From positions 1-41,581 of the forward strand of contig NZ_CAMDRA010000009.1 of the NCBI RefSeq assembly GCF_945906275.1: DNA of 41,581 nucleotides. Reading direction: 5' to 3'. The position numbers and the translations under genes are program-made. Source of the DNA: Dongia mobilis (lineage in GTDB: Bacteria; Pseudomonadota; Alphaproteobacteria; Dongiales; Dongiaceae). Below the pieces are notes generated by a model. That model saw nothing but the letters and a program-made list of their open reading frames with translations. It had not been told where the DNA came from and made no database searches. Of the stretch, positions 16,900 to 34,907 are shown piece by piece. Numbering within the stretch: position 1 is the first letter of the stretch; each line of letters begins with the position of its first letter.

Positions 16900-16995
16900 A
16901 TTCAGCAAGATGGCCCCAAGGGGTTGACCGCGATCGCCCCGTGAGGCCTTGGCTAGAGAATCGCGTCCTGTCTCCCGCTAAGGAGTGGACGTCAC

Positions 16996-17817
16996 ATGCC
17001 CGGCCCCGATTCCATCACAATCGCCCAGTTCTCGCGCCTCATCGGCCTGCCCGATGCGCCGATCATCATCGACGTGCGCGACGACGAGGATTATGCGAGC
17101 GACCCGCGCTCGGTTCCGACCGCGATCCGGCGCGACTATCGGACAGTTGCCGAATGGGCGCCGGATTTCGCCGGCAAGACCGCCATCGTCACCTGCCAGC
17201 GCGGCCTGAAGCTCAGCCAAGGTGTCGCTGCCTGGCTGCGCCAGGCCGGCATTCCCGCCGAGAGTCTCGAGGGCGGCCACGAAGCCTGGGTCGCCGGCGG
17301 TGGCCTGTTGCGGAACGATGCGGCTTTGCCGGCGCGAAAGGCCGATGGCCGCACCGTCTGGGTCACCCGCGCCAGGCCCAAGATCGACCGCATCGCCTGC
17401 CCCTGGCTCATCCGCCGCTTCATCGACCGCGACGCGGTCTTCCTCTATGTCGCGCAATCCGAGGTCCTCAATGTGGCCGAGCGCTTCAACGCGACACCCT
17501 TCGACATCGACGGCGTGTTCTGGAGCCATCGCGGCGAGATGTGCAGCTTCGACGTCATGCTGCAGGAGTTCGGCCTCGATGCCGCGCCGCTCAAGCGCCT
17601 CGCCACGATCGTACGCGGCGCCGATACCGACCGCCTCGACCTCAGCCCGCAATCGGCCGGGCTGCTCGCGGCCTCACTCGGCTTCTCGCGCATGTACCGC
17701 GACGATCTGCAACAATTGGATGCCACCATGGCGCTCTACGATGCCTTCTATCGCTGGTGCCGCGATGCCGTGGCGGAATCACATAACTGGCCCAATGCAG
17801 GACCCCGTGACGCATGA
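16996..17817 (+). CDS. Rhodanese-ChrB fusion, chromate-resistance-related protein
   Basis: A 273-aa protein. Residues 10-110 form a rhodanese domain with the loop cysteine Cys67 (VTCQRGLKLSQG), able to carry a persulfide. Residues about 120-265 match the ChrB C-terminal (chromate_resist) domain, with RIACPWLIRRFIDRDAVFLYV at its start. AAGGAG lies 10 nt before the ATG. The last four bases overlap the chrA start (ATGA, 17814-17817), so both are made together. A role in sensing or detoxifying chromate is the family annotation; the rhodanese half and the sulfide-oxidation genes upstream suggest a link to sulfur metabolism instead or as well. Confidence 0.88.
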   Translation: MPGPDSITIAQFSRLIGLPDAPIIIDVRDDEDYASDPRSVPTAIRRDYRTVAEWAPDFAGKTAIVTCQRGLKLSQGVAAWLRQAGIPAESLEGGHEAWVAGGGLLRNDAALPARKADGRTVWVTRARPKIDRIACPWLIRRFIDRDAVFLYVAQSEVLNVAERFNATPFDIDGVFWSHRGEMCSFDVMLQEFGLDAAPLKRLATIVRGADTDRLDLSPQSAGLLAASLGFSRMYRDDLQQLDATMALYDAFYRWCRDAVAESHNWPNAGPRDA

Positions 17818-19142
17818 GCGATGATCACCCGCGCCTGCCGACATTCGGCACGGCGCTCCGCGTCTGGCTGAAGATCGGCCTCCTCTCCTTCGGCGGGCCG
17901 GCCGGGCAGATCGCCCTCATGCACAAGGTGGTGGTCGACGAATTGCGCTGGGTGGGGGAGCGGCGCTTCCTCCACGCGCTCAATTTCTGCACCCTGCTGC
18001 CGGGACCCGAAGCCCAGCAGCTCGCCACCTATCTCGGCTGGCTGATGCATGGCGTGAAAGGTGGCCTGGCCGCGGGCATTCTTTTCATCCTGCCCGGTGC
18101 CCTTGTCATGCTGGGGCTCTCGCTCGCCTTCGTGCTGCTGGGCCATCTGCCGCTGATGGCAGGTCTGTTCTTCGGCCTGAAATGCGCGGTGCTGGTGCTG
18201 GTGGTCGAAGCTCTGCTGCGCATCGGCCGGCGCGCGCTCAAGGGCCGCGCGGCCTATGCGATGGCCGCCGCAGCCTTCATCGGCCTCTTCCTGCTCAGGA
18301 TCCCGTTCCCGCTGGTGGTGATCGGCGCTGGGCTGATAGGCCTCCTCTTGCCGCGCGCCTTCACTCATCGCTGGCACGAAGCGGGCGATAAGGATGTACC
18401 AGCCCTGATCGATAGCCTGCTGTTGCGTGAGCCACGCCGCGCGGCAGAGCTGGCGCGCGGTGCAAGATGGGCCGGCCTGGGTGCCCTTATCCTGTGGCTG
18501 CTGCCGGCCTTGATCCTCATCTTCCTTGTCGGCGGGACCTATGGCGATATCGCCGCCTTCTTTTCCAAGATGGCGGTGGTCACCATGGGCGGCGCCTATG
18601 CGGTGCTGGCCTATGTGGCGCAGGACGCGGTCGCCACCTATGGCTGGCTGACCTCGGCCGAGATGCTGACCGGGTTGGGTCTCGCCGAGACGACACCGGG
18701 GCCGCTCATCCTGGTGCTGCAATTCGTGGGCTTCCTGGCCGGCTATCGCGACGGCGGCGTGCCGGGCGCGCTGATCGGCGCTGCCATCACATTGTGGGTG
18801 ACGTTTGTACCGTGCTTTGCCTTCGTCTTCATCGGCGCCCCCTGGATCGAGAAAATGCAAGGGAGCCGCCTGCTCGCCGGTGGCCTTGCCGCCATCACCG
18901 CGGCTGTGGTGGGCGTCATCGCGAACCTCGCTTTGTGGTTCGCGCTCCAGGTGATCTTCACCGCACAGGAAACGGTCAGGATCGGGCCGCTCTCCATCGA
19001 CCTGCCGGTGCCGGCCAGCATCGATTTTGCTGCCGGGGCTCTGGCCCTGCTTGCGGCCATCGCCTTGTTCCGCCTCCGCCTCGGCGTGTTCGGCACTCTG
19101 GCGCTCGTCTCGGCCTGCGGCGTCGGGCTCAGCTTCATCTAG
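17814..19142 (+). CDS. chrA: ChrA-family chromate/anion efflux transporter
   Basis: Inner-membrane transporter of 442 aa, the two-domain (long) CHR form. The N-terminal half has WLKIGLLSFGGPAGQIALMH and LLPGPEAQQLATYLGW; the C-terminal half repeats the plan with MGGAYAVLAYVAQDAV and ETTPGPLILVLQFVGF. About ten hydrophobic segments are visible. Family members expel chromate, usually in competition with sulfate. Translation is coupled to the rhodanese-ChrB gene by an ATGA overlap. It is the last plus-strand gene before the convergent katG, and a strong GC-rich hairpin lies between them. Confidence 0.93.
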   Translation: MSDDHPRLPTFGTALRVWLKIGLLSFGGPAGQIALMHKVVVDELRWVGERRFLHALNFCTLLPGPEAQQLATYLGWLMHGVKGGLAAGILFILPGALVMLGLSLAFVLLGHLPLMAGLFFGLKCAVLVLVVEALLRIGRRALKGRAAYAMAAAAFIGLFLLRIPFPLVVIGAGLIGLLLPRAFTHRWHEAGDKDVPALIDSLLLREPRRAAELARGARWAGLGALILWLLPALILIFLVGGTYGDIAAFFSKMAVVTMGGAYAVLAYVAQDAVATYGWLTSAEMLTGLGLAETTPGPLILVLQFVGFLAGYRDGGVPGALIGAAITLWVTFVPCFAFVFIGAPWIEKMQGSRLLAGGLAAITAAVVGVIANLALWFALQVIFTAQETVRIGPLSIDLPVPASIDFAAGALALLAAIALFRLRLGVFGTLALVSACGVGLSFI

Positions 19143-32700: not shown

Positions 32701-33540
32701 TCACACACCCATGCCGTATTTGTGGAGCAGCTCGCCATAGCGGGGCGAGGCCTTGAGAATCCTGATGGCCTCGTCGAACTGCGCCATGTCGGGCAGCGCC
32801 GGCGAGCGTTTGCCGATGAGGAGATGCCAGTCGACGCGCTCGATCACCGTCGGCAGTTCGATCACGTCGGCGGCGTTGGGGTCGCTCTTCAGGATCCAGT
32901 TGATCTGCGACGACATGTCGACGATGACATCGCCGCGCTTTGCCAGCAGCATGCGCACCGTGCCGACCGTGCCGCTCGCGTGTTCGGTCCGGATGCCGCG
33001 GCTCTCGATGTTGCGCTTGATCCAGCCATTGCCGGTGAAGGCGATGACTGTGATGTCGGCGCGGGCGAGATCGTCGAGGGATTTCACTGCCTTCAGCCGA
33101 TCGAGAGCCGGGTTGTCGCGGCGTGCGAACATGGTGATGGGACCGGTCATCAACGGCTCGGCGCTGGCCACGGCATATTGCAGGCGCGCCGGGGTCACGA
33201 CCAGGCACATGGCGTCCGCGCCACCGCTTTCCACTTCGAGCTGCACGCGCGGCAGCGGCCGCGCCAGGGGACGGAAGATGTAACCGGTGCTGGCGGCGAC
33301 GTCGGCCATGACGTCGACCAGCAGCCCCTGCAGGCGGTTATCTTCATTCTGCCAGGAACTGGGCGGCGACTTGTCCGGATAGGCGATCCGGAGCACGCGT
33401 CCAGGATCGGTGGCCGGATTTTCAGCCCAGGCGCCCACTCGCCCGCCCGCGCGCCCGCCCGCCCGATCACCCATTGGGTTACCGAGGGGCAGGGTCGAAA
33501 GGAGCGTCGCGCCGCCCAGCAAAAAACCGCGTCGATTCAT
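32701..33540 (-). CDS. Periplasmic solute-binding protein, family 3 (amino-acid type), Tat-exported
   Basis: Putative periplasmic binding protein or sensor-like receptor of 279 aa. The start MNRRGFLLGGATLL is a twin-arginine signal (Arg3-Arg4), supporting ATG 33538-33540 over an upstream in-frame ATG at 33588. After the signal there is a short Gly-Arg repeat (GDRAGGRAGGRVGAW) coded by a CGCC-rich simple repeat, an odd linker for the family. The mature domain has LRIAYPDKSPPSSWQ, GLLVDVMADVAASTGY and VDMSSQINWILK, typical of SBP_bac_3. No transporter genes are adjacent, so it could be an orphan. It is divergent from the DUF2239 gene. Confidence 0.8.
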   Translation of the reverse strand: MNRRGFLLGGATLLSTLPLGNPMGDRAGGRAGGRVGAWAENPATDPGRVLRIAYPDKSPPSSWQNEDNRLQGLLVDVMADVAASTGYIFRPLARPLPRVQLEVESGGADAMCLVVTPARLQYAVASAEPLMTGPITMFARRDNPALDRLKAVKSLDDLARADITVIAFTGNGWIKRNIESRGIRTEHASGTVGTVRMLLAKRGDVIVDMSSQINWILKSDPNAADVIELPTVIERVDWHLLIGKRSPALPDMAQFDEAIRILKASPRYGELLHKYGMGV

Positions 33541-33619
33541 GAAAGCCAGACTATCTATGTCGCCTTTCCGATTGATTAATAATTTCATTTTGTCGCGCCG
33601 CCCGGCGGCTGCTCAAATA

Positions 33620-33665
33620 TTTATACCCGGATGATATTGACAGGATGTTTTTACCCGGGTATTAA
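33620..33665. promoter_or_regulatory. Divergent promoter region with CCCGGG-core operator, controls the DUF2239 gene
   Basis: Plus strand: TTGACA (33637-33642), 17 nt, TATTAA (33660-33665), a strong-looking promoter with an RNA start near 33671-33673. The perfect palindrome TACCCGGGTA (33652-33661) fills the spacer up to the -10. The sequence TACCCGG recurs 28 bp upstream (33624-33630), abutting a TATAAA (33620-33625 on the minus strand) that could be the -10 of the divergent gene. Two sites at this spacing suggest one repressor acting on both promoters. Confidence 0.6.
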
Positions 33666-33670
33666 GCGCC

Positions 33671-34267
33671 ATGCCCCATCAGAAAGCCGCCACCATGATC
33701 GATACCCCCAGCTGGACCGCCTTTACCGGCACAGACCGCCTCATCACCGCCCCCTTGGGCGAGGTGGCCTTGGCGGTCAAGCGCGCCTTGGCGGCGCGGC
33801 CGGATGCGACCATTCTCATCTATGACGATCGCACCGGCCGCGCGATCGATCTCGACCTGCGCGGTGCCGAGGCCGAAATCAGCACGCGCTACGGCGCCCC
33901 GCCGGTTGCCCCGCCAGCCGCAGAGCCGGAACCGCGCGGTCGCGGCCGGCCCAGGCTCGGCGTGGTGGCGCGCGAGGTGACTTTGCTGCCGCGCCATTGG
34001 GACTGGCTCTCCGCCCAGCAGGGCGGCGCCTCGGTGGCGTTGCGCCGGCTGGTCGAGGAGGCCCGCGGCAAAGGCGGCGACCGGCAGCGCCGCCGCGCCG
34101 CCCAGGATGCCGCCTATCATTTCATGTCGTCCATGGCCGGCGACCTGCCCGGTTTCGAGGAGGCGATCCGCGCCCTCTATGCCGCCGACCGCGCGACCTT
34201 CGCCGCACGGATGGAAAGCTGGCCGCCGGACATCCGCGCCCATGCGATGAAGCTCGCCGATGTCTAG
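33671..34267 (+). CDS. DUF2239 family protein, possible ribbon-helix-helix DNA-binding regulator
   Basis: A 198-aa protein of unknown function with the DUF2239 layout. Residues 15-75 form an N-terminal domain (TAFTGTDRLITAPLGEVALA). A Pro-rich linker leads to RGRGRPRLG (89-97), an AT-hook-like motif, and then REVTLLPRHWDWLSAQ and GGASVALRRLVEEAR (101-132). The last part reads like a ribbon-helix-helix: a short strand, a helix, a turn and a second helix. The C-terminal 60 residues are helical. The start could be ATG 33671, which would make the mRNA nearly leaderless, or ATG 33695 (MIDTPSW), about 23 nt into it; neither has a good Shine-Dalgarno. Its 3' end overlaps the nuclease-like gene by 8 nt. 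A repressor role is my inference. Confidence 0.8.
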   Translation: MPHQKAATMIDTPSWTAFTGTDRLITAPLGEVALAVKRALAARPDATILIYDDRTGRAIDLDLRGAEAEISTRYGAPPVAPPAAEPEPRGRGRPRLGVVAREVTLLPRHWDWLSAQQGGASVALRRLVEEARGKGGDRQRRRAAQDAAYHFMSSMAGDLPGFEEAIRALYAADRATFAARMESWPPDIRAHAMKLADV

Positions 34268-34907
34268 CGCGGAAGATGGCCGCTTCCCCCGGCTCGGCGA
34301 TCTCATGGCCGGCATCGCGCCACTCAAGCAGCGCAAGGCCTGGCAGAGGGAGCTTGAGAAGATCGTTCTCGAAGACGGGCCGCGCTGGGGACGGGTCGAA
34401 GCGACGCTCGCCCGACTACCGGTGGCGGCATGGCAGCGACTTAAGGCCGTCATCCTCGGCCAGGTTGATCTCCGCAATCCGGCGCAGGGCTGGGTGCAGG
34501 CCATGCCGCTGCTCAACGAAGCGCGCGCCCATGATCATCTTGTGCGACACGGGTTTCACGATGTCGACTTCCTCGTGGCACAGGCGCACGCGAAATCACC
34601 GGACCTGCGCGCCCTGCGCGATGGCAGGGTCATGCTCTGCGAAGTGAAGACAGTGAGGCTCGGCCGCGGCGATGGCCTTGCCGGCACTCTTGATGTGAAG
34701 CTCGCCCAGCGCCTTCGCGACGCCGCGCAGCAACTGGGCGCCATCAGCGATCCACCGGACGCGGCACGCATGATCTATCTCGTGCTCGACATCAGCGACG
34801 ATCTGCAACCGATGGCGGGCGAGATCAGGCAGCAGGTCGACCGCTTTCTCGCCCAGGTCGAATTGGCCGGGGTCGACGTCGTGGTCGACGACAACGCACC
34901 TGCATAG
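34260..34907 (+). CDS. Hypothetical protein with PD-(D/E)XK nuclease-like motif
   Basis: A 215-aa protein I do not recognise by name. The central part has the order of a PD-(D/E)XK nuclease core: a helix with an acidic residue (LLNEARAHDHLVRHGF), a strand (DVDFLVA), Pro114-Asp115 in SPDLRAL and, 12 residues on, Glu128-Val-Lys130 in MLCEVKTV, followed by a basic helix (LAQRLRDAAQQLG). Asp115 and Glu128-x-Lys130 would be the metal-binding and catalytic residues. The start overlaps the end of the DUF2239 gene by 8 nt, so the two are co-translated. Convergent with the PAS gene, 1 nt apart. Activity on DNA, RNA or none is unknown. Confidence 0.7.
   Translation: MSSAEDGRFPRLGDLMAGIAPLKQRKAWQRELEKIVLEDGPRWGRVEATLARLPVAAWQRLKAVILGQVDLRNPAQGWVQAMPLLNEARAHDHLVRHGFHDVDFLVAQAHAKSPDLRALRDGRVMLCEVKTVRLGRGDGLAGTLDVKLAQRLRDAAQQLGAISDPPDAARMIYLVLDISDDLQPMAGEIRQQVDRFLAQVELAGVDVVVDDNAPA

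Follow-up and report, generated by a model that had tools for sequence, protein, structure and literature searches.

TetR- or MarR-type repressors control small drug or stress regulons. In these regulons, a DNA-binding protein controls its own gene through palindromic operators that cover the core promoter, and a small number of genes for efflux or detoxification are also under its control, features that the DUF2239 system described here appears to share. DUF2239 differs from them in that it matches no TetR- or MarR-type Pfam family and in that nuclease-like genes are found among its candidate targets. A search of 5.39 million openly available papers, a scope outside which most subscription journals lie, returned no paper on DUF2239, COG3644 or PF09998 and no report of an operator, a regulon or a co-occurrence pattern for DUF2239; within that literature, the family is not described as transcription regulators.

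The window analyzed here, a stretch of 41,581 nucleotides from Dongia mobilis, contains a DUF2239 gene followed by a gene for a 215-amino acid protein. We favor, with a probability of roughly 0.72, a reading in which DUF2239 is a DNA-binding regulator, most likely a repressor, with a variable operator-linked regulon; the nuclease would be a single, replaceable member of this gene set. Computed support comes from conservation of the operator, co-occurrence of gene families, the operator at unlinked genes and a PD-(D/E)XK core in the model of the 215-amino acid protein.

Promoter and start codon of the DUF2239 gene

Direct reading of the window bore out the promoter described in an earlier note on this DNA: TTGACA and TATTAA boxes 17 bp apart, the TACCCGGGTA palindrome and, 28 bp upstream, a second copy of its TACCCGG sequence (Table 1). 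The consensus TAYCCGGRTA occurs once in the 41.6-kb window and in none of 100 shuffles. The first ATG of the DUF2239 frame (33671) lies 6 nt past the -10 box, at about the expected transcription start. Because this is too close to the -10 box, translation more likely begins at the ATG at 33695 (MIDTPSWTAF...), except in the case of a leaderless mRNA; the later ATG gives a protein length that agrees with those of relatives.

Table 1 Features of the DUF2239 locus in the window
Feature	Position	Strand	Remarks
Upstream operator copy TACCCGGATG	33624..33633	+	Just 5' of -35 box; read directly
-35 box TTGACA	33637..33642	+	Between both operators
Downstream operator TACCCGGGTA, perfect palindrome	33652..33661	+	Inside spacer end, overlaps -10
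-10 box TATTAA	33660..33665	+	17-bp spacer from -35
DUF2239 gene (PF09998), proposed autorepressor	33671..34267	+	Likelier start 33695; Pfam match
215-amino acid protein, predicted PD-(D/E)XK core (E87, D115, E128-x-K130)	34260..34907	+	Model, alignment

The divergent gene encodes a family-3 solute-binding protein (32701-33588), and 36 nt separate its ATG from the first operator. This neighbor was not seen beside DUF2239 in the other genus members examined, and the gene was dropped as a part of the module. In genome G040, the promoter of an unlinked SBP_bac_3 gene (L137, 1084-1818) contains a twin operator that is AT-rich; the presence of a solute-binding protein beside the operator in both the window and G040 may be a coincidence.

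Conservation of the operator across bacteria

The comparison covered 80 named loci of DUF2239 in GTDB genomes, eight viral loci and further ones obtained by family search. An operator was called when at least 9 of the 10 positions of TAYCCGGRTA matched within 130 bp of the conserved protein start, and 4000 windows taken from the same DUF2239 loci served as controls. Among the 80 loci, an uneven sample with many from Bradyrhizobium and Burkholderia, 77 contain the operator compared to 0.6% of control windows, and 70 contain a pair 25-31 bp apart compared to 0.15% of control windows. The three bases on either side of the operator are 99% A/T, a value that falls to 55% slightly further off. The twin arrangement recurs in Acidobacteriota (L017, L071, L081) and is kept by Deinococcus gobiensis and by a plasmid of Paenibacillus, the latter with the same ATATTGAC context of the -35 box. 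This context is also found in relatives and in promoters of unlinked regulon genes, and Acinetobacter copies of DUF2239 have TACCCTGATA present twice. On sequence grounds, DUF2239 genes have in this palindrome a genuine and ancient operator, conserved over large evolutionary distances. Its conservation renders autoregulation, as the earlier note had proposed, very likely. The note had also tied its proposal to DUF2239 genes elsewhere keeping both the palindrome and the partner gene; the palindrome is kept, and the partner is mostly missing.

Structural analysis of DUF2239 and the 215-amino acid protein

The DUF2239 protein matches PF09998 over its full length (E = 3.6e-79; score 265 bits, cut-off 25) and belongs to this family, which has no assigned function. 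The AT-hook-like RGRGRPRLG noticed earlier is indeed present at residues 89-97, in a flexible, low-confidence linker of the predicted structure. G92, R93 and P94 are invariant across 66 DUF2239 proteins, giving a GRP core with basic flanks that would qualify as an AT-hook. A near-invariant AREVTLLPRHWDWL...GGAS..LRRLV block stands after this stretch. The model (pLDDT 89) reveals an alpha/beta N-terminal part, the flexible linker, two helices and a helical end. The two helices (residues 107-115 and 119-134) come after a near-invariant REVTLLP stretch, of which VTLLP is coil in the model. This arrangement is compatible with an RHH monomer, and the strand-helix-helix order is consistent with RHH; compared with the RHH_1 set, the first helix is short by roughly one turn. 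Pfam RHH models matched none of the 66 DUF2239 members, hhalign against RHH_1 sequences gave a probability of 0.5%, a PDB sequence search returned no match and comparison with solved structures yielded no convincing match to the DUF2239 fold.

The open reading frames of DUF2239 and the 215-amino acid protein overlap by 8 nt (34260-34267), as had been noted, and the two genes are probably co-transcribed. The AlphaFold2 model of the 215-amino acid protein (pLDDT 88.2) displays a canonical alpha-beta-beta-beta-alpha-beta PD-(D/E)XK core (elements H87-96, E100-104, E116-120, E123-134, H140-161 and E169-178). Residues D115, E128 and K130, to which the earlier note had drawn attention, are present, and six relatives, with identities as low as 24%, all keep E87, P114-D115, E128 and K130. 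The protein thus shares with the PD-(D/E)XK superfamily both this core and the E, D, E-x-K motif, and differs from it in an extra N-terminal helical part. Its PDB neighbors are mostly PD-(D/E)XK enzymes with Z values of 6-8, which are tied, so that no subfamily can be assigned. The nearest folds are CdiA-CT (4zqu), AF1548 (1y88) and XisH (2inb), with Z values of 8.3-8.4; others include HamA of Hachiman (8vx9; Z 7.4), Hjc resolvases and Card1/Can2. Pfam, NCBIfam and PHROG hold no family for this protein. The model, the conserved catalytic positions and the PDB neighbors support the fold assigned in the earlier note, and we predict that the protein is nuclease-like with a PD-(D/E)XK core. Among relatives it diverges faster than DUF2239 (38-65% versus 66-71% identity). 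No plasmid or viral copies of its gene were found.

Partner genes of DUF2239

Seven genomes of the window's genus were compared. DUF2239 occurs in four of them, each time with the PD-(D/E)XK gene directly 3' and abutting, overlapping or a few bases apart. Only in this genus was the gene found beside DUF2239; elsewhere it is rare. Across 398 genomes of the phylum, the PD-(D/E)XK model matched in four, two of them from the window's genus, one G471 (L197) and one marginal, and the protein was rejected as a general companion of DUF2239. The conserved linkage that the earlier note had looked for between the two families does not hold, since most DUF2239 genes lack this partner. Stand-alone PD-(D/E)XK relatives, members of an unnamed nuclease family, were seen in distant Proteobacteria (L004, 1360-2079; L197, 1318-2313), with no DUF2239 gene or operator nearby.

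Outside the genus, the usual partner is a GIY-YIG-family gene that is divergent, downstream or unlinked. The name is taken from public annotation, and HMM matches to TIGR01453 and PF01541 are weak but consistent. Of the 398 genomes, 43 contain DUF2239, 26 contain the GIY-YIG family and 24 contain both; the hypergeometric P of about 1e-24 is uncorrected for relatedness and overstates independence because the genomes are related. The GIY-YIG gene is unlinked to DUF2239 in 10 of the 24 genomes. Nine of these ten genes are preceded by the operator at a distance of about 45-85 bp; the remaining one, a weak match, lacks it. No operator was found at the two GIY matches in genomes that lack DUF2239. 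Unlinked GIY genes with the operator look like the pattern expected of a regulon under DUF2239 control. Within the window's genus, none of the seven genomes yielded a GIY-YIG gene of this family. The GIY-YIG family and the 215-amino acid protein would occupy the same place in the DUF2239 regulon, although their fold classes are unrelated. Among neighbors of DUF2239, no other gene family was prominent beyond genus-level synteny, and for betaproteobacterial and other DUF2239 genes often no nuclease target was found. Betaproteobacterial-type GIY-YIG relatives 3' of DUF2239 (L070, L073, L075, L093) contain VAG instead of W-V/I-G; loss of the aromatic residue of this second motif suggests that they may be non-catalytic.

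The wider regulon

We scanned 80 genomes, 59 with DUF2239 and 21 without, for the pattern HAYCCGGRTRRTATTG. Matches were found in 23 of the 59 genomes versus 3 of the 21 (Fisher p 0.03), a difference that on its own is only weakly significant; the three single matches in DUF2239-negative genomes resemble chance or coding sites. In three genomes, perfect operator sites precede genes for MATE efflux pumps; such sites also precede a gene for an alpha/beta hydrolase and one for a SnoaL-like protein. All of these genomes contain DUF2239. Regulon members other than GIY-YIG are based on few genomes. In Phyllobacterium, DUF2239 is followed by a MATE gene, and in Paenibacillus by DUF1330 and alpha/beta hydrolase genes. 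A strict twin-site pattern that included the -35 box matched in 6 of 40 genomes with DUF2239 and in none of 40 without it, and revealed two new targets; it was set aside as a census because it is too strict. Pattern searches of the window's own genome gave the DUF2239 promoter as the sole convincing site.

A model for DUF2239 and its alternatives

We propose a model in which DUF2239 binds the palindrome TAYCCGGRTA with its AT-only flanks. The two operator copies, 26-30 bp apart, would bracket the -35 box of its promoter, the second covering the spacer and the -10 box. Bound protein should therefore keep RNA polymerase off the promoter and hold down expression of the DUF2239 operon through negative autoregulation. 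Since the nuclease-like gene is in the DUF2239 operon, the PD-(D/E)XK protein that the window's operon also yields would be held low until a signal frees DUF2239. Elsewhere, the same operator would govern a small, variable gene set that often includes GIY-YIG and sometimes MATE, alpha/beta hydrolase or SnoaL-like genes. We infer the identity of the binder, repression as the sign of control, the signal and the nuclease activity. The combination of efflux, detoxification and nuclease targets suggests a stress or xenobiotic response, and the system looks like such a regulon with an exchangeable nuclease effector rather than an obligate toxin-antitoxin pair. Under the model, DUF2239, so far a widespread family without a function, becomes a transcription factor that can be tested, with a candidate site, promoter layout and regulon. 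Two unrelated nuclease-like families, GIY-YIG and PD-(D/E)XK, would fill one regulatory slot, which raises the question of which stress requires a small nuclease and an efflux pump jointly.

In a type II toxin-antitoxin module, the nuclease would be the toxin and DUF2239 an autoregulating antitoxin that also binds it. Such a module would fit the position of a gene for a small, autoregulated DNA-binding protein just 5' of the nuclease, the overlapping or close genes in the four genus members and the substitution of GIY-YIG genes for the partner elsewhere. However, an antitoxin that is obliged to neutralize its toxin is rarely unlinked from it, and the constant linkage of regulator and toxin is not found here: DUF2239 mostly occurs without the 215-amino acid partner, and of the 24 genomes with both DUF2239 and GIY-YIG, ten have the two genes unlinked. 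The operator also stands at efflux and hydrolase genes. We regard this explanation as very unlikely, and a toxin-antitoxin pair as the general plan was rejected on linkage. The fixed two-gene toxin-antitoxin or defense unit envisaged in the earlier note gives way to a partner that is usually GIY-YIG and often unlinked, and to an operator shared with efflux and hydrolase genes. It is also unlikely that another, unlinked transcription factor binds TAYCCGGRTA and that DUF2239 is simply its most conserved target. DUF2239 is a predicted binder, and profile and fold searches gave no support for an RHH fold in it, which would leave room for such a factor. Against it, the operator tracks DUF2239 across phyla, it is missing from GIY genes where the genome has no DUF2239, and the AT-hook-like core and near-invariant block of DUF2239 suit an AT-flanked site.

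PD-(D/E)XK and GIY-YIG effectors are common in defense, and DUF2239 might silence an anti-phage nuclease, with phage-borne DUF2239 acting at the common operator so that the nuclease of the host stays repressed. Consistent with this idea, DUF2239 is encoded on eight viral contigs, on most of which one operator-like site precedes the gene, and the one contig checked bears a virion structural gene. HamA of Hachiman and Card1/Can2 among the PDB neighbors and the faster divergence of the nuclease relative to DUF2239 (38-65% versus 66-71% identity) point in the same direction. Other findings weigh against it: PADLOC gave no family match above noise (the best match of the nuclease, to HEC-02B, had an E of 0.01 and covered only a part of it; no match for DUF2239), efflux and hydrolase genes have the operator in common and the nuclease has no viral copies. 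We regard the anti-phage explanation as unlikely. The operator-like sites on the viral contigs may mean that phages use a host operator. A broader proposal, that DUF2239 is a new phylum-spanning class of repressor whose phage copies silence a host nuclease-and-efflux regulon in which the nuclease swaps between GIY-YIG and PD-(D/E)XK, appears improbable.

The viral copies come from IMG/VR contigs (L094-L101). In most of these, a TTGAC-like box precedes DUF2239, and structural genes are nearby on the other strand.

Other features of the window

A ChrB-like gene with a rhodanese-like N-terminal part (16915-17817) is followed in the window by a ChrA-like transporter gene (17814-19142). A chrB-a RNA motif (59.7 bits) lies directly 5' of the ChrB-like gene. 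Judged by sequence reading, from which the ChrB and ChrA names are taken, the region at 16915-19142 is an RNA-associated chromate-resistance operon.
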